From Actinacidiphila yanglinensis (lineage in GTDB: Bacteria > Actinomycetota > Actinomycetes > Streptomycetales > Streptomycetaceae), in NCBI RefSeq assembly GCF_900107965.1, contig NZ_FNVU01000028.1, forward strand, positions 1 to 64,000: a stretch of 64,000 nt of DNA, given 5' to 3'. Under the pieces are notes generated by a model. It made no database searches, was not told the origin of the DNA, and saw only the letters and a list, made by a program, of their open reading frames with translations. The translations under genes were made by a program, and so were the position numbers. How positions within the stretch are numbered: position 1 is the first letter of the stretch; each line of letters starts with the position of its first letter. Below, one piece after another: positions 15,194 through 46,877 of this stretch.

Positions 15194-15646
15194 ATGTCCT
15201 TGCACGCCCCGCCCGCGGACAGCGCCCAGGACACCGCGCTGTACCAGGAAGTCCAGCGGTTCTACGCCCACCAGATGCGCAGCCTCGACGAAGGCGACGT
15301 CGACTCCTGGGTCGCGACCTTCACCGAGGACGGCGTGTTCAGCGCCAACGCCCACCCCGAGCCGCAGGAGGGCCGGGAGGCGATCCGCGAGGGCGCCACC
15401 GCGGCCACCCGCAAGCTGGCCGAGGCGAAGATCCGCCGCCGGCACTGGCTCGGGATGCTGGACGTGGCGGCGAACCCCGACGGCACCGTCCGCGCCGTCA
15501 CCTACGCCCAGATCATCGCCACCCCGCTCGGCGGCACCGCCCAGCTCGAACTGAGCTGCACCTGCGAGGACCTGCTCGTGCGCGAGGGCGGCCGGCTGCT
15601 CGTCCGGCACCGCCAGGTGTACCGCGACGACCTCGCGCGGTCGTGA
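15194..15646 (+). CDS. SnoaL-like / NTF2-fold protein
   Basis: A 150-residue single-domain protein with the NTF2/SnoaL fold pattern: an N-terminal helix (YQEVQRFYAHQMRSLDEGDVDSWVATFTEDGVFSAN), then EGREAIREG, RRHWLGMLDV, and beta strands ending in RHRQVYRDDL. Relatives in aromatic polyketide clusters are ring cyclases (SnoaL) or hydroxylase partners. The start ATG at 15194 follows GGAAGGGATTCC. It is first of the rightward unit and is divergent from the ketoreductase operon. The reaction cannot be fixed from sequence; the catalytic acid of SnoaL was not assigned. Confidence 0.82.
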   Translation: MSLHAPPADSAQDTALYQEVQRFYAHQMRSLDEGDVDSWVATFTEDGVFSANAHPEPQEGREAIREGATAATRKLAEAKIRRRHWLGMLDVAANPDGTVRAVTYAQIIATPLGGTAQLELSCTCEDLLVREGGRLLVRHRQVYRDDLARS

Positions 15647-15689: not shown

Positions 15690-17660
15690 ATGGTGAACCC
15701 GGCACCGACCGCCACCCCGGGCCCCCGCCCGGAGTCCTACGCGGCAGGTGTCCCGCTGGACACGCTCGGCGACCTGATCGGCGGGCCGCGGATCGACGAC
15801 CTGCTGCACCGGGCCGCCGCGGCGGCGCCCGACCGCGTCGCGGTCCGCGACGGCGCGAGCACCACCACATACCGGGAGTTGGAGGCACTGGCCGACCGGT
15901 ACGCCGCGGGGCTGGCGGAGTTGACCGGCGGCCCGGGGGGTGCGGTGGCGATCGCCACCGCGCTCGACCGGTGGTTCCCGCCGGCGTTCTTCGGCATCGC
16001 CCGCTGCGGCGGCGTACCGGCGCTGTTCAACCCGCTGCTGCGGGAGAACGGCCTCGCGCACGTGCTGAGCGCCTGTTCCGCGCGCGTGGCGGTGATCCCG
16101 CCCGGCCTGTACGAGCGGCTCGCCTCGATCCGGGGCCGGCTGCCCGAGCTGCGCCACGTGGTGCTGACCCACCGCGACCCGTCGGTGGCCGGCGTGCCGT
16201 CCGACGTGCCCACCCTCGACGAACTGGGCGAGCGCGCCGCGGGCGCCCCGCCGGCCGCGCCGGGGGACGGCGCGGCGGACCCGCCGGGGGACGTCCCGGA
16301 TCAGGTGGCCTGCATCCAGTTCACCAGCGGCACCACCGGCTCGGCCAAGACGGTCCTGCTCAGCCACCGCAACCTGCTGGTGAACGCGGCGCAGTCGGCG
16401 CGTGCGCACGGCCTGGACTCCTCGTCCGTGGTCTTCGACTACCTGCCGACGTTCCACCTGATGCACCTGACCATCACCGTCGCCGTGGGCGGCACGCTCG
16501 TGCTGTGCACCCAGCAGGACCCGGCGGACGCGATGGACACCGCCAACCGGCTGCGCGCCACGCACTTCTACAGCCTGCCGGTACGCCTGGCACGGCTGGC
16601 GGTGCACCCGCGGCTGCCGGAACTGGAGTGCCCGTCCCTGCGGGCGGTGCTCTCCGGCGGCTCGACGCTGCCGCCCGCCGCGGCCACCGCGCTGCACCAG
16701 CACTTCGGGGCGCCGGCGGTGCAGGGCTACGGACTGCAGGAGACCTCCCCCTCCACGCATTTCGACAGCCTGACCGCCCCCCGCTCCCGCTCGTCCGGCC
16801 CGCCGGTCGCGGGCACCGAGTGCCGGATCGTGCACGTGGACACCGGCGCGGTGCAGCCGGTGGGCGACAAGGGCGGGATCCAGGTCCGCGGGCCCCAGTT
16901 GATGAAGGGGTACCTCGGCCGGGACCTCGCGCTGGACACCGATGCCGATGGCTGGTTCTCCACCGGCGACATCGGGGTGATGGACGAGGACGGCTTCCTG
17001 TTCGTGGTCGACCGGGTCAAGGACGTCTTCAAGCGCGACAACTGGCTGGTCTCGCCCACGGAGATCGAGCGGGTCCTGCTGCGCCACCCGGCCGTCGCCG
17101 ACTGCGCCGTCGTGGACCACCCGCACGAGTTCAGCGGGGCCGTGGCCCGCGGGTTCGTCGTCCTCGCCGACCACGCTCCGGCCGGTGCCGAGGCCGTCGT
17201 CGCCGAGGTCAACGCAGAACTGCCCTACTACGAGCACATCGAGCTCGTCGAGGTGACCGACCGTATCCCGCGCTCGCCCACCGGCAAGATCCTCCGCCAG
17301 GAGCTCCGCGCGCGTCCGGTCGCCGCCGAACAGCCCACCCCCCGTCAGGAGATGAGGTCCGCCATGCACTACTTCGTCAACCGCTTCACGGTCACCGGCG
17401 ACGCCGAGGAGTTCGAGCGGCTGCTCGGCAAGATCACCGACTACATGGCGGGCCAGCCCGGCTTCCGCTCCTACAAGCTCTACCGCTCGGTGCAGGACCG
17501 CAACGTCTACGTCGAGACGGCGGAGTGGGACGACGCCGCCGCGCACCAGAAGGCCGTCAGCGGCGACGGGTTCCGCGGCCCGGTGATGGAGATCATGAAG
17601 CTCGCCAAGGCCGAGGCGGGGCCCTACACCCTCGTCACCGAGCACAACGGCCGTCCGTAA
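15690..17660 (+). CDS. Acyl-CoA ligase fused to an antibiotic-biosynthesis monooxygenase (ABM) domain
   Basis: A 656-residue protein. Residues 1-540 are an ANL adenylate-forming ligase: the P-loop region is QFTSGTTGSAKTVLLSH, the adenylate motif YGLQETSPS, then DGWFSTGDIG, and the Lys motif SPTGKILRQEL. Residues 559-656 form a complete ABM ferredoxin-like domain (MHYFVNRFTVTGDAEEFERLLGKITDYMAGQPGF). The join lies in RPVAAEQPTPRQEMRSA, with no stop or frameshift. The DNA at the join contains AGGAGATGAGG 10 bases before an in-frame ATG at 17364, so the ABM domain may also be made alone. The ligase resembles OxyH-type enzymes of tetracycline clusters; ABM domains oxidise anthrone-like rings. Confidence 0.88.
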   Translation: MVNPAPTATPGPRPESYAAGVPLDTLGDLIGGPRIDDLLHRAAAAAPDRVAVRDGASTTTYRELEALADRYAAGLAELTGGPGGAVAIATALDRWFPPAFFGIARCGGVPALFNPLLRENGLAHVLSACSARVAVIPPGLYERLASIRGRLPELRHVVLTHRDPSVAGVPSDVPTLDELGERAAGAPPAAPGDGAADPPGDVPDQVACIQFTSGTTGSAKTVLLSHRNLLVNAAQSARAHGLDSSSVVFDYLPTFHLMHLTITVAVGGTLVLCTQQDPADAMDTANRLRATHFYSLPVRLARLAVHPRLPELECPSLRAVLSGGSTLPPAAATALHQHFGAPAVQGYGLQETSPSTHFDSLTAPRSRSSGPPVAGTECRIVHVDTGAVQPVGDKGGIQVRGPQLMKGYLGRDLALDTDADGWFSTGDIGVMDEDGFLFVVDRVKDVFKRDNWLVSPTEIERVLLRHPAVADCAVVDHPHEFSGAVARGFVVLADHAPAGAEAVVAEVNAELPYYEHIELVEVTDRIPRSPTGKILRQELRARPVAAEQPTPRQEMRSAMHYFVNRFTVTGDAEEFERLLGKITDYMAGQPGFRSYKLYRSVQDRNVYVETAEWDDAAAHQKAVSGDGFRGPVMEIMKLAKAEAGPYTLVTEHNGRP

Positions 17661-17741: not shown

Positions 17742-18785
17742 ATGACCGAGGCACAACAGGCGACCACGACCGTACCCGGACCGGTGCTGCGGCTGCGGGA
17801 GTTCGCCCACAGCGCCGCCTGCGCGGCGTCCGTCCGCGCGGCCGCCCTGCTCGGGCTGCCGGAGGCCCTGGGCGACGAGCCCGCCTCGCCGGCCGACCTG
17901 GCCGCGGCCGTGGGCGCCGACCCGGACGCCACGGCCCGGCTGCTGCGCTCGCTGGCGGTCCACGGTGTCTTCACCGAGGACGCCGACGGCAACTACGCGC
18001 ACACCCCGGAGTCCCGGCTGCTGCGCGAGGACGCCCCGCACAGCATCAAGTACAACGTCCTGTGGGCCACCGAGCCGTGGACCTGGGAGCTGCTGCAGCA
18101 CCTGGACGAGGGGGTCCGCACCGGCAAGGCCGTCTTCCCCTCGCTGCACGGCGGTGAGGAGTTCTTCAGCCACCTGCACTCGCACACCCCGCGCTCGGCC
18201 GAGGTGTTCGACAAGGCGATGACGCAGTCCAGCCACCTGTCGGCGCGGGCCATCGCGGAGCGCCTGGACCTGAGCGGGGCCGGCACCGTCGCCGACATCG
18301 CCGGCGGCCAGGGGCTGGTGCTCGCGACCCTGCTGGAGAAGCACGCCGGCCTGCACGGCACCCTGCTCGACCTGCCGAACGTGGTGGCCAACCCGGACCC
18401 GCGGCTCGCGGCCGGCGGCGCGTTCGCCTCCCGCACCCGGCTGCTGCCGGGCGACTGCCTCCAGGGGATACCCGTCGAGGCCGACGTCTACATCTTCAAG
18501 AACATCCTGGAGTGGGACGACGAGAGCACCGTGACCGCCCTGCGCAACGCGGTGGCCGCCGGCCGTCCCGGCGCCCGGGTGATCGTGATCGAGAACCTGG
18601 TCGACGGCAGCCCCGAGATGAAGTTCACCACCGCGATGGACCTGCTCCTGCTGCTGAACGTCGGCGGCAAGAAGCACACCCGCAAGGGACTGGCCGCCCT
18701 CATGGAGAAGGCCGGCCTGCGGGTGGACCGGATCAGCGCGGTCAACTCCTACCTGCACATGTTCGAAGCGGTCATCCCCGGCTGA
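17742..18785 (+). CDS. SAM-dependent methyltransferase
   Basis: A 347-residue family member of the acetylserotonin/TcmO type. It has a winged-helix domain (ASVRAAALLGLPEALGDEPASPADLAAAVG), the SAM loop VADIAGGQGLVLATLLE, the acidic LLDLPNVV, and the IFKNILEWDDE segment where O-methyltransferases usually carry His-Asp. The expected catalytic His is replaced by Asn/Glu-type residues, so C-methylation or a non-catalytic role should be considered. The start ATG 17742 is preferred (GGGAC upstream); an in-frame ATG at 17730 has no better site. It is the third methyltransferase of the cluster. Confidence 0.87.
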   Translation: MTEAQQATTTVPGPVLRLREFAHSAACAASVRAAALLGLPEALGDEPASPADLAAAVGADPDATARLLRSLAVHGVFTEDADGNYAHTPESRLLREDAPHSIKYNVLWATEPWTWELLQHLDEGVRTGKAVFPSLHGGEEFFSHLHSHTPRSAEVFDKAMTQSSHLSARAIAERLDLSGAGTVADIAGGQGLVLATLLEKHAGLHGTLLDLPNVVANPDPRLAAGGAFASRTRLLPGDCLQGIPVEADVYIFKNILEWDDESTVTALRNAVAAGRPGARVIVIENLVDGSPEMKFTTAMDLLLLLNVGGKKHTRKGLAALMEKAGLRVDRISAVNSYLHMFEAVIPG

Positions 18786-26481: not shown

Positions 26482-27048
26482 ATGCCCCCGCCTCCCGCGC
26501 CGACGCCGCCGGTTCCCCCTGCCGGCCCGGTCGACGCCCAGCTTTTCCGCGCGATCATGGGCGCGCTGCCCACCGGAGTGACCGTGGTCACGACGATCGA
26601 TGCCCAGGGCGAGCCCTGCGGGTTCACCTGCAGCGCGTCGTGCAGCGTGTCCCAGGACCCGCCGCTTCTGCTGGTGTGCGTGAACAGCCGCAGCCGCGTG
26701 CTGCGGGCGATGCGTTCCACCGGGGCGTTCGCCGTCAACATCCTGCGCGACAGCCGGGAGTGGGTCTCGGCGCACTTCGCCTCCGGCGCCGACGACCGCT
26801 TCTCGTCGGTGGCCTGGAAAGCCACCGACCAGCTCGGCCTGCCCTGGCTCCCCGACGACACCGTCGCCTTCGCGGAGTGCCGGGTGGATTCGGCGATCAC
26901 CGCGGGAGACCACACGGTGGTCATCGGTTCGGTGATCGGCGGTGAGGCCCGGCAGACCCGGGAGCCCCTGATGTACTGGCGTCGCGAGTACGCGGGCTGG
27001 CCGCTGCGCGACGCGCCGTACGGCATCACCTTCGCCACCGAGGGCTGA
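26482..27048 (+). CDS. Flavin reductase
   Basis: A 188-residue protein of the FMN-binding split-barrel flavin reductase family. Typical segments are FRAIMGALPTGVTVVTT, GFTCSASCSVSQDPPLLLVCVN, AFAVNILRDSREWVSAHFA and the C-terminal LMYWRREYAGW. It would supply FADH2 to the halogenase encoded convergently at 27298 and perhaps to other flavoenzymes, as CtcQ does for CtcP in chlortetracycline synthesis. It begins 17 bases after the SARP gene and so is probably cotranscribed with it. Confidence 0.92.
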   Translation: MPPPPAPTPPVPPAGPVDAQLFRAIMGALPTGVTVVTTIDAQGEPCGFTCSASCSVSQDPPLLLVCVNSRSRVLRAMRSTGAFAVNILRDSREWVSAHFASGADDRFSSVAWKATDQLGLPWLPDDTVAFAECRVDSAITAGDHTVVIGSVIGGEARQTREPLMYWRREYAGWPLRDAPYGITFATEG

Positions 27049-27068
27049 CCCCGGCGAGGGCCGACCCC

Positions 27069-27116
27069 CACAGCACGGTGCCGCCGCCGGAATCCCGGCG
27101 GCGGCACCGTGCTGTG
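27069..27116. terminator. Terminator after the flavin reductase gene
   Basis: A 22-base perfect inverted repeat (27069-27090 with 27095-27116) and a 4-base loop AATC, 20 bases after the stop codon. Confidence 0.9.
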
Positions 27117-27238
27117 CGTCCTGCGTGGTCCGGGTGCCGGGTGCTGGGCGCTGCCTGTGCCGAGTTGAGCGCCGCGCGCGGGGGCGGACGCCGGGTGCGG
27201 GCCGCACCGCCGTGCCCCGACCCGCCGGTGGGACCGCA

Positions 27239-27283
27239 CAAGCGGCTGCCGCCGCCGGGACTCCCGGCGGCGGCAGCCGCTTG
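27239..27283. terminator. Terminator after the halogenase gene
   Basis: A 21-base perfect inverted repeat (27239-27259 with 27263-27283) with a 3-base loop, 15 bases beyond the halogenase stop. Its core GCCGCCGCCGG matches the core of the neighbouring hairpin at 27069. Confidence 0.9.
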
Positions 27284-27297
27284 CGTGCGGGCGCGGG

Positions 27298-28929
27298 TCA
27301 GAGCGTGGCCTGGACCTTCTGCGGGGACACCGCGAGCAGGTCGCGGATCTCCTTGCGCGGGTGGGTCTTCGCCCACTCGGCGACCGCCTGCATGTTCTCC
27401 GCGGTCGGGCTGATGAACCGCTCCTCGGGGCGGTTCAGGCCCAGCGCCGGGAACATCCAGTCCGACTCGCGGACCTTCGCGAGCATCTGGTCGGCGACCT
27501 CCTGCGCCGGCACCTCACCGGCGTCGACGCGGTCGCACGCCTCGATGAGCTCCTCGAACAGCTCGGCGCTGAAGTCCGTGGGGCACCACAGGCCCGGGTA
27601 CTTGCTGTCGTCGAGCGCCCGCAGCGCGTCGTCGTTGCCGACGGCCTTGGAGGTGGCGAGCGCGTTGAGGAACCGCTTGCTGCCGATGGCGCTGCCGGTC
27701 ACCCAGATCCGGAAGACGGCGTTCCACAGGTCGTAGTTCTGGAAGCTGATGTAGGAGGCGTTGACCAGCTTGTCGTTGTAGTCGAGCAGGCCCTGCTCCA
27801 GGCGCTCCACCGGAGCGAACCGGTCCATGCTGAAGTCGTCGTCCTTCAGGGCCTCGACCAGCCGCCACGCCAGCGTGTTGATCAGCTCGCACGTGTTGGA
27901 CAGACCGCGGGAGAACAGCGGGTCGATGAACCCGGCCGCGTGGGACATCAGGCACCAGCGCGGGCCCACGGTGCGGGTGGAGGAGTACTGCATGCGCGAG
28001 GTGCGCACCCACTCGCGGGCGCTGCGGGCGTTGGCCAGTTGCCGGGCGACGACCGGGAAGCGGTTGGCGTGCTTCCAGAACTCGTCCTCCGGGGACAGGC
28101 CCGGCTCCTCGGGGTAGAGCCGCTCGTCCACCTGAAGGCCCACGCTGCACAGCGGGTTGGTGGACGCGGCGTGGTTGTCGAACGGGATGATCCAGAGCCA
28201 GCCGCGCTCGAACATGTGGTGCAGTGTCCCGGAGTGCCACGGCACGGGCGGCCGGTCGCCGGCCTCGTGCAGCAGGTGGTCGTCCGCGGGCTCGACGCCG
28301 ATCATGTGCGTGAAGATCGACCGGGCGTGGTGCTTGAGCCGGCTCGGCTGCTCCCGCAGGCCGAGCTGGTCGGCCAGCGGCGAGCGGAAACCGCTCGCGT
28401 CGACGATGTAGCGGGCCTGGTAGGTGGAGCCGTCGGCGCCGATCACGGTCACGCCGTCGTCGGCGAAGTCCACCTTCGACACACGGTAGTTCTGCCGGGC
28501 CTCGCAGCCGTAGCGCAGCGCGACGTTGAACATGTACGTGTCGCTGTCCTGCCGGAAGAAGTGGGCGGCGTTGCCGGTGACGTCCAGCAGCCGGAACATG
28601 TTCGTCTCGCGCGGGTCCGGCTCCTCACCGTCCCGCTCCATGATGAAGCCGAAATTGCTTTTCTGGCCGTGCGAGGTACCCACGTGCTTGAGCACGCTGT
28701 CCAGGCTGCCGAGGTGGCCGATTTCCGGCACCTCGTACCGGTGGGCGAGCAGCCGCAGCAGGAAGAGCGTCTGCCCGATGGTCGACTCGCCCACCGCGAA
28801 GCGCGGATGTTGCGCCCCGTCCAGCAGGAGCACGCGAAATCCGTGCTTGGCGAGGATGGCGCCGAGCATCGTGCCGGAAAGCCCGGTCCCGACGATGGCG
28901 ACATCGTACGTACCTTCGTCACGCTGCAT
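27298..28929 (-). CDS. FAD-dependent halogenase
   Basis: A 543-residue flavin-dependent halogenase. The FAD site is VAIVGTGLSGTMLGAIL, the family-specific VGESTIGQTLFLL replaces the GEST box of tryptophan halogenases, and the diagnostic W-x-W-x-I-P is present as GWLWIIPF near residue 237. The C-terminal 200 residues form the extra helical domain seen in CtcP-like and related phenolic halogenases. The substrate is probably a phenolic ring of the polyketide, giving a chlorinated product. It has its own leftward promoter with a candidate SARP box and is divergent from the KS-alpha gene. Confidence 0.94.
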   Translation of the reverse strand: MQRDEGTYDVAIVGTGLSGTMLGAILAKHGFRVLLLDGAQHPRFAVGESTIGQTLFLLRLLAHRYEVPEIGHLGSLDSVLKHVGTSHGQKSNFGFIMERDGEEPDPRETNMFRLLDVTGNAAHFFRQDSDTYMFNVALRYGCEARQNYRVSKVDFADDGVTVIGADGSTYQARYIVDASGFRSPLADQLGLREQPSRLKHHARSIFTHMIGVEPADDHLLHEAGDRPPVPWHSGTLHHMFERGWLWIIPFDNHAASTNPLCSVGLQVDERLYPEEPGLSPEDEFWKHANRFPVVARQLANARSAREWVRTSRMQYSSTRTVGPRWCLMSHAAGFIDPLFSRGLSNTCELINTLAWRLVEALKDDDFSMDRFAPVERLEQGLLDYNDKLVNASYISFQNYDLWNAVFRIWVTGSAIGSKRFLNALATSKAVGNDDALRALDDSKYPGLWCPTDFSAELFEELIEACDRVDAGEVPAQEVADQMLAKVRESDWMFPALGLNRPEERFISPTAENMQAVAEWAKTHPRKEIRDLLAVSPQKVQATL

Positions 28930-45536: not shown

Positions 45537-46877
45537 ATGTCAACGGTGCCGCTGCTCACTGCTCTGCACGGCGGGCCGGACCGTCCGGACGCGCTGCGGG
45601 TGGACGGCAAGGCGTGCGGCTACGAGGAGCTGCTCGGCGCGGCGGGCGCGGTGGCCCGCCGGGTGGCGGGGATGCCGGCCTTCGCGGTGGAGGCCGACGC
45701 GTCGCTGGAGACGGTCGCGGCGGTGGTCGGCGGGCTGCTGGCCGGGGTGCCGGTGGTGCCGCTGGCGCCGGACGCGGGTGCGGACGAACGCGCCCACGTG
45801 CTGCGGGACTCCGGCGCGGAACTGGTGGCCGTCGACTTCGCGGAGCGGGCCGACGTCGCGGAGCGGACCGACCAGGCGCCGGAGCGGCCCGCGCTGGTCC
45901 TCTACACCTCGGGGACGACCGGCCCGCCCAAGGGCGTCATGGTCTCGCGGGACGCCATCGCCGCCGACCTCGACGCCTTGGCGCAGGCCTGGCAGTGGAC
46001 GGCCGACGACACCCTGGTGCACGGCCTGCCGCTGTTCCACGTGCACGGCCTGGTGCTCGGCGTGCTCGGCGCGCTCCGCGTCGGCAGCCGCCTGGTGCAC
46101 ACCGGCCGTCCCACCCCGGCGGCGTACGCGGCGGCCGGCGGCAGCCTCTACTTCGGGGTGCCCACCGTGTGGCACCGGGTGGCGCGCGACGAGGCGGCCG
46201 CCCGCGCGCTGTCCGGCGCGCGACTGCTGGTCTCCGGCAGCGCACCGCTGCCCGCGCCGGTCTTCACCGCCCTGGCAGGCCTGACCGGGCACGAGCCGGT
46301 CGAGCGCTACGGCATGACAGAGACGCTGATCACCGTCAGCGCCCGGGCGGACGGGCCGCGCCGCCCGGGCGCGGTCGGCACCCCGCTGCCCGGGATCGCC
46401 ACCAGGATCGCGGAGTCCGCGGACGGCATCGGGGAACTCCAGCTCACCGGTCCCACCCTCTTCGACGGGTACCTCGGCCGCCCGGAGGCCACCGCGGCGT
46501 CGTACACCGAGGACGGCTGGTTCCGCACCGGCGACATCGCGTCCGTCGAGGAGGACGGCACGCACCGGATCGTCGGGCGCGCGTCCACCGACCTGATCAA
46601 GTCCGGCGGCTACCGGGTCGGCGCGGGCGAGGTGGAGAACGCGCTGCTGGCCCATCCGGCGGTACGCGAGGCGGCGGTGGTCGGCGCGCCGCACACCGAC
46701 CTGGGGCAGGAGATCGTCGCCTACGTGGTCGCCGACGGGGTGAGCGCGACCGAACTCACCGACTTCGTCTCCGCCCGGCTGTCCGTGCACAAGCGCCCAC
46801 GGCGGGTCCGATTCCTGGCCGAACTACCGCGCAATGCCATGGGGAAGCCGCAAAAGCGGTTGCTGCCCCCGATGTGA
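45537..46877 (+). CDS. ANL acyl-CoA synthetase, malonyl-CoA synthetase-like
   Basis: A 446-residue adenylate-forming enzyme. The P-loop is LVLYTSGTTGPPKGVMVSRDA, then HVHGLVLGVLGALRVG, the adenylate motif ERYGMTETL, GWFRTGDIAS, the hinge GRASTDLIKSGGYRVGAGEVE, and the C-terminal catalytic Lys in NAMGKPQKRL. The short length and the HVHGL and KSGGYRVGAGEVE motifs fit MatB-type malonyl/methylmalonyl-CoA synthetases. It could feed malonyl-CoA to the polyketide cluster, although it is 8 kb outside it. The ATG has AGGAGG at the ideal distance. Confidence 0.85.
   Translation: MSTVPLLTALHGGPDRPDALRVDGKACGYEELLGAAGAVARRVAGMPAFAVEADASLETVAAVVGGLLAGVPVVPLAPDAGADERAHVLRDSGAELVAVDFAERADVAERTDQAPERPALVLYTSGTTGPPKGVMVSRDAIAADLDALAQAWQWTADDTLVHGLPLFHVHGLVLGVLGALRVGSRLVHTGRPTPAAYAAAGGSLYFGVPTVWHRVARDEAAARALSGARLLVSGSAPLPAPVFTALAGLTGHEPVERYGMTETLITVSARADGPRRPGAVGTPLPGIATRIAESADGIGELQLTGPTLFDGYLGRPEATAASYTEDGWFRTGDIASVEEDGTHRIVGRASTDLIKSGGYRVGAGEVENALLAHPAVREAAVVGAPHTDLGQEIVAYVVADGVSATELTDFVSARLSVHKRPRRVRFLAELPRNAMGKPQKRLLPPM

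Follow-up and report, generated by a model that had tools for sequence, protein, structure and literature searches.

A natural in-frame ligase-ABM fusion of a tetracycline-type cluster, its recurrence among relatives and its retained internal start codon

Introduction

What does a gene make when it encodes, in one frame, an ANL-family (AMP-forming) ligase followed by an ABM domain, with an ATG at the very joint: one bifunctional enzyme, two proteins, or nothing of the kind, its frame being an error of the assembly? The question is raised by a gene of the window, i.e. the whole stretch of 64,000 nucleotides that was analysed, taken from the start of a 116-kb contig in a 9.6-Mb, 43-contig genome. 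The original prediction took the gene for a natural fusion of two usually separate genes, which could tether oxidation to a CoA-activated intermediate or else still deliver the ABM protein separately. The features discussed below are collected in Table 1.

Table 1. Positions of the fusion gene, its parts and its two neighbours in the window
Feature	Position	Strand	Basis or remark
SnoaL-like cyclase, OxyI / ChdX / MtmX type	15194..15646	+	43 bases upstream of the fusion gene
Ligase-ABM fusion ORF, OxyH-OxyG / ChdL-ChdOIII type	15690..17660	+	656 aa; ORF, Pfam; for the architecture cf. PMC7749508
ANL (AMP-forming) ligase domain, residues 1-545	15690..17324	+	Pfam; proposed ring-4 (C1-C18) cyclase by homology, PMC5321127 and PMC7247220
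Asn451 codon, at the pantetheine-tunnel Gly position of other ANL ligases	17040..17042	+	Alignment
Lys533 codon, presumed A10 adenylation lysine	17286..17288	+	Lys in 54/54 family rows
Linker, residues 546-558 (13 residues)	17325..17363	+	Flexible in the AlphaFold2 model
Retained Shine-Dalgarno-like site within the coding frame, AGGAGATGAGG	17347..17357	+	Sequence, duplex energy
In-frame ATG, proposed internal start of a free 98-aa ABM protein	17364..17366	+	Same codon as the start of the separate relatives' ABM
ABM domain, OxyG / ChdOIII type, residues 559-656 and stop	17364..17660	+	Pfam ABM 1.6e-11
Glu51 codon of the ABM (residue 609)	17514..17516	+	Replaces catalytic Asn52 of RslO4, Asn63 of SnoaB, Asn62 of ActVA-Orf6
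Methyltransferase, OxyF / ChdMI type by position and size	17742..18785	+	Downstream; start SD energy -8.9

Results

Integrity of the joint

In the translation of the window, a single stop-free frame leads from the ATG at 15690 to the TAA at 17658-17660, and its 656-residue product matched the Pfam models AMP-binding (residues 40-409), AMP-binding_C (458-533) and ABM (559-629), all above their gathering scores. The third-position G+C lies between 0.87 and 1.00 in each 90-base block of the frame, and since it is unbroken over the joint, a frame error is not indicated. The same in-frame joint was found in three Streptomyces records, namely sp. NRRL B-24085, sp. RP5T and S. boncukensis (loci L038 to L040, L038 and L039 being closely related to each other), which share 71-75% identity with the window gene in the ligase and 82-85% in the ABM. 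As the joint is common to these three records, a base-call error is very unlikely. A stop missed or a frameshift in this assembly, for which the draft status (43 contigs) might speak, is refuted in practice by the continuous codon-position G+C and by the like joints of the three records, and sequencing artefact was consequently rejected, with a negligible probability left to it.

An AlphaFold2 model, obtained with 15 fused relatives as input, has a mean pLDDT of 82.6 and a pTM of 0.71, with both domains folded; ligase residues 17-541 are confident and residues 546-557 have a pLDDT below 50. The fusion of a full ANL ligase with an ABM domain is real, as originally proposed: two adjacent genes of tetracycline-type aromatic polyketide clusters, which evolve together, have naturally become joined in frame.

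Distribution of fused and separate pairs

At a ligase match of E 1e-80 or better, 51 of the 394 genomes of the family sample were retained: 11 with a fused pair, 29 with a separate ABM gene directly downstream and 11 with no ABM nearby, the latter meaning that none was found in a stretch of about 1.5 kb on either side of the ligase (a near-identical second copy in genome G288 was left uncounted). The ABM thus directly follows the ligase in 40 of the 51 ligase-bearing genomes. Further ANL-ABM fusions, which the original prediction had proposed to search for, therefore exist, and its statement that the two are usually separate genes holds for 29 of these 40 genomes and fails for the other 11. 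As for the remaining samples, a match was obtained in one of 35 genomes of the window's own genus (its own) at the same threshold, in three of 396 genomes of the phylum-wide sample, all of the same family, and in 44 of 392 genomes of the Streptomyces-type genus sample, where 23 new loci (L118-L140) were classed. The relatives found in the plasmid collection have less than 60% identity. All sources together provided 86 classed loci (29 fused, 43 separate and 14 without ABM), some genomes being present in two collections.

An excess of in-phase joints over chance (31 of 49 representatives vs. one third expected; p = 1.7e-5) was set aside, because a fused query had been used to rank the loci, a choice that favours such joints. 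Concerning the ABM frames, those of L024, L026, L027, L030, L031, L034, L036, L137, L138 and L139 reach 186-229 aa, about twice the usual length; a second ABM match is present in L036, and the long frames may be tandem ABM proteins. Locus L044 (Actinokineospora fastidiosa) combines the ligase with KS-alpha, CLF, ACP, amidotransferase and SnoaL-like genes, and no ABM was found in its 21.5 kb.

For the ligase tree, the 62 loci with an ABM were reduced to 49 representatives below 90% ligase identity (20 fused and 29 separate), and a quick IQ-TREE of the ligase part was computed with five additional ligases provisionally labelled as having no ABM; 16 of its 51 inner branches are left open. The fused and separate states change 10 times on this tree when the rows without ABM are left out. 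If fused is set against all others, 12 changes are counted, at least eight of them forced by starred branches. The fused label is also clustered beyond chance, only 6 of 500 shuffles needing as few changes; fusions therefore last for some time and may be maintained in some lineages.

Closely related joints differ by little. The fused L041 and the separate L043, with 85.5% ligase identity, have near-identical joints with small indels between them; the fused L012 and the separate L025 have very similar joints, the stop of L025 overlapping the Shine-Dalgarno (SD) site. In 10 of the 11 in-phase separate joints, exactly one stop lies between the domains. The linkers of the fused joints measure 10-39 residues from the end of the ligase alignment and are conserved neither in length nor in sequence. 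Position 51 of the ABM, which is Glu in 30 and Asn in 19 representatives, changes once on the ligase tree, on a branch that has a support of 77 and is not starred. As linkage changes about ten times and position 51 once, ligase and ABM descend as a unit, joined or not.

The proposed internal start codon and its Shine-Dalgarno-like site

The ATG at 17364 had been regarded as a former separate start, and it does correspond to the start codon of the separate relatives' ABM genes. Pairing with the anti-SD has a duplex energy of -11.0 kcal/mol at this codon vs. -11.8 at the gene's own start, and none of 30 in-frame ATG/GTG codons tested within the window ligase reaches -11.0. The same score was computed over the 15 bases preceding the ABM start of every representative, with a cut-off of -6 kcal/mol (28 separate representatives, L036 having been dropped as no start was found). 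The cut-off was reached by 20 of 20 fused and 27 of 28 separate representatives, compared with 232 of 1317 in-frame ATG/GTG codons within the ligases. Fused joints differ from this background (p = 9.7e-13) and not from separate ones (p = 0.20), both p values ignoring relatedness. Nine separate joints were added later: eight have an energy of -6.6 or below at the nearest start, and L141, at the start picked, does not reach this value.

Several variations of the analysis were conducted. With a fixed rule, i.e. the start nearest to the domain edge, 19 of 20 fused and 25 of 28 separate representatives pass, and in every one of 12 variants of anti-SD and spacing p is at most 3.8e-9. Shorter anti-SD strings place only 16-18 of the 20 fused joints below the background's 20th percentile. 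If the 13 fused lineages are counted instead, the long anti-SD lets all 13 pass, and the other strings 9-11 of them. Synonymous recoding of single linkers gave p < 0.05 in 8 of 20 (0.021 for the window), and codon permutation of the linkers did so in 17 of 20 (0.0065 for the window). The pattern of the 16S 3' end was not found in the window's own draft genome and is present in two complete relatives.

The SD core occupies all three codon phases (9, 7 and 4 cases) and encodes residues as different as RR, GG, QE, EE and KE, which indicates that nucleotides rather than a peptide persist. A base-by-base conservation of the SD zone above that of the upstream linker was not found in the fused clades (window vs. 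L038: 4/9 against 0.64); the motif persists yet drifts in place within them. Some fusions may perhaps be too young to have lost the site. The suggestion that the ABM could also be made separately hence gains support of a comparative kind, from the start codon and the SD-like site that are kept.

Cluster context

The gene order around the fusion is presumably that of a tetracycline-type cluster. The fusion gene is part of a tetracyclic type II PKS cluster, in which its neighbours include a SnoaL-like cyclase, a ketoreductase and a two-domain aromatase/cyclase. Nearby are also a FAD monooxygenase, two F420-type PPOX proteins, methyltransferases, an acyltransferase, LuxR and SARP regulators, KS-alpha, CLF, ACP, an asparagine-synthase-type amidotransferase, a halogenase-like flavoprotein and a flavin reductase. 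A SnoaL-like homologue is present in 11 of 12 long relative loci, and L038 shares 17 of the window cluster genes at 62-84% identity in a closely similar arrangement. The likely assignment to the tetracycline type is by analogy with the chelocardin gene table (PMC7749508) and with the gene order of such clusters.

At 26482-28929, the flavin reductase adjoins the halogenase-like flavoprotein (Pfam Trp_halogenase 1.4e-13), which suggests a chlorinated product; homologues with 68-69% identity are located near the ligase in L041 and L043. No member of an aminotransferase family was found among the 40 ORFs of the window (586-56973) scanned with Pfam, so the C4 amine typical of classical tetracyclines may be absent from the product. 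Outside the polyketide cluster lies another ANL-family ligase gene (45537-46877), with 32% identity to the ligase part of the fusion.

Catalytic residues of the two domains

The window ligase has the ANL fold and the adenylation motifs (SGTTG and the A10 Lys), Lys533 being what we take to be the A10 adenylation lysine, with the role of that motif. At the A8 tunnel position, 52 of 54 family rows have Asn (the other two have His and Gly), compared with 72 of 73 ANL rows outside the family that have Gly, these being mostly FadD-like matches and paralogues of the window's own genome; 4CL and feruloyl-CoA synthetase likewise have Gly at the position of Asn451. By motif, this position would be that of the conserved Gly459 of MacsMa, proposed to open the pantetheine tunnel, the Gly459Ala exchange having a mild effect (PMC10455477). 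Asn451 would thus make CoA use by the window ligase less likely, without excluding it. SsfL2 is described as closing ring 4 by an ATP-dependent C1-C18 Claisen reaction, which is proposed to run through an acyl-adenylate without CoA (PMC5321127), and Asn451 would fit, without proving, such a CoA-free adenylation. MtmL is required for ring 4 and acts together with the SnoaL-like MtmX (PMC7247220). The idea of an oxidation tethered to a CoA-activated intermediate consequently finds no support, in view of the CoA-free proposal for the homologue SsfL2 and of Asn451 in place of the tunnel Gly. In Foldseek, 4CL structures were the best matches of the model, with ANL-type enzymes in all of the 50 matches listed; the model is closest to the CoA-bound state of 4CL (5bsr), which gives no evidence on CoA use.

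As for the ABM, its nearest solved relatives are RslO4 (7BIO; E 9.2e-14), 9VAH and SnoaB (E 7.6e-11). RslO4 relies on Asn7, Asn52 and Trp56 (PMC8093152). The window ABM has Asn6, Glu51 and Trp55, the first and last of which match Asn7 and Trp56; it belongs to the fold family of SnoaB, RslO4 and ActVA-Orf6 and lacks their full catalytic set of Asn, Asn and Trp. Because Glu51 stands where the characterised oxygenases have a catalytic Asn, oxygenase activity of the window ABM is putative. Among the 49 representatives, the triads are NEW (28), NNW (12), TNW (6), DEW (2) and SNW (1), the full set being present in 12 only. In the other 37, one catalytic Asn is replaced, either Asn6 by Thr, Ser or Asp or Asn51 by Glu, and both are replaced in two. 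MtmOIII, listed as a 99-aa 'monooxygenase' next to MtmL, is dispensable for mithramycin (PMC7247220); it is probably an ABM protein. Chromomycin is described as having no third oxygenase (PMC8341913).

Discussion

The explanation that we consider probable, on comparative sequence grounds, is one gene with two products, the 656-aa fusion and a free 98-aa ABM protein, whose covalent linkage would be largely optional. In these G+C-rich operons, the ABM gene begins some tens of bases downstream of the ligase; loss of the ligase stop, or a small indel shifting the phase, would let the ligase frame run into the ABM, and the ribosome-binding site and start codon of the latter would remain within the new coding frame, where ribosomes could still initiate. 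One mRNA would then give both proteins. The ligase part would adenylate the carboxyl of a tricyclic intermediate so that ring 4 could close, probably with the help of the SnoaL-like protein whose gene lies directly upstream; the ABM would act, attached or free, on the same intermediate or on its product.

If only the 656-aa protein were made, as a true bifunctional enzyme in which the tether passes the ring-closed product to the ABM for oxidation at once and the internal ATG is a relic, one would expect a frame that stays open, as it does in three other records, fused clades that persist (the window, L038 and L040; L015, L045 and L037) and two folded domains connected by a linker that is short and flexible, as in the model. 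This is rather unlikely in view of the 29 separate pairs out of 40, the repeated changes of state, the linkers that are conserved in neither length nor sequence, and the SD-like site and start kept in 20 of 20 fused representatives. The fusions might also be incidental and without effect, being recent stop losses whose parts work as before, with internal initiation as a minor leftover. The fused share of 11 out of 40 would be about that expected from a random phase and the few stops of G+C-rich DNA, single-stop joints are common, MtmOIII is dispensable in mithramycin (PMC7247220) and the ABM is absent beside 11 of the 51 ligases. However, fused joints do not fall behind separate ones in SD-like energy, not even where the clade has diverged to about 72-79% ligase identity. 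Passive decay would lead one to expect otherwise, and we regard an incidental fusion as quite improbable.

The reading of one gene with two products can be taken further. ABM proteins are dimers. With optional linkage and a kept internal ribosome site, the fusion and the free ABM would form mixed oligomers, in which a Glu-type ABM that has left oxygenation would assist an AMP-driven, CoA-free ring closure; this we put forward as a tentative possibility. If it is true, neither half is what its annotation says. Asn451 and Glu51 provide testable grounds for doubting the labels CoA ligase and monooxygenase. Automatic annotation presents one 'AMP-binding protein' and would hide a second product, which may be required when tetracycline-type clusters are expressed heterologously. 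Recurrent switching together with a persistent ribosome site also offers a natural series for asking when a fusion matters and when it is neutral.

Comparison with known systems

The chelocardin genes chdL and chdOIII form one polypeptide of 643 aa, an acyl-CoA ligase/oxygenase, and translational coupling is attributed to their homologues oxyH and oxyG (PMC7749508); with such a single polypeptide already in print, the novelty first expected of the window gene was too high. PMC7749508 was the sole fusion report found, and no report of the fusion's recurrence or of a retained internal start was found in open-licence papers; on internal initiation in fused genes, the open-licence literature yielded nothing for the ligase/ABM pair.

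As in ChdL-ChdOIII of Amycolatopsis sulphurea, the ligase comes first and the small oxygenase-like protein follows in one frame (643 aa there and 656 aa here), and as in the chelocardin cluster, a SnoaL-like cyclase, a ketoreductase, an aromatase/cyclase and an OxyL-like oxygenase are nearby. Unlike that cluster, to which it is likened by description, the window cluster adds an asparagine-synthase-type amidotransferase and a halogenase-like flavoprotein, and its OxyL-like gene lacks the cyclase fusion of chdOII-chdY. OxyH and OxyG of oxytetracycline, again likened by description, are the same two proteins encoded side by side, by two genes there and one here. SsfL2 (SF2575) and MtmL (mithramycin) are also ANL-family ligases of tetracyclic polyketide clusters, and as with MtmL/MtmX, a SnoaL-like gene lies just upstream of the window fusion gene; by analogy of architecture and context these ligases appear alike, although, in the parts of the sources available, SsfL2 and MtmL are not described as fused. 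SnoaB, RslO4 and ActVA-Orf6 share the fold family of the window ABM and differ in the second catalytic Asn, which is Glu51 here. As a whole, the fusion as such is known, and what is new is its recurrence and the internal start retained within it.
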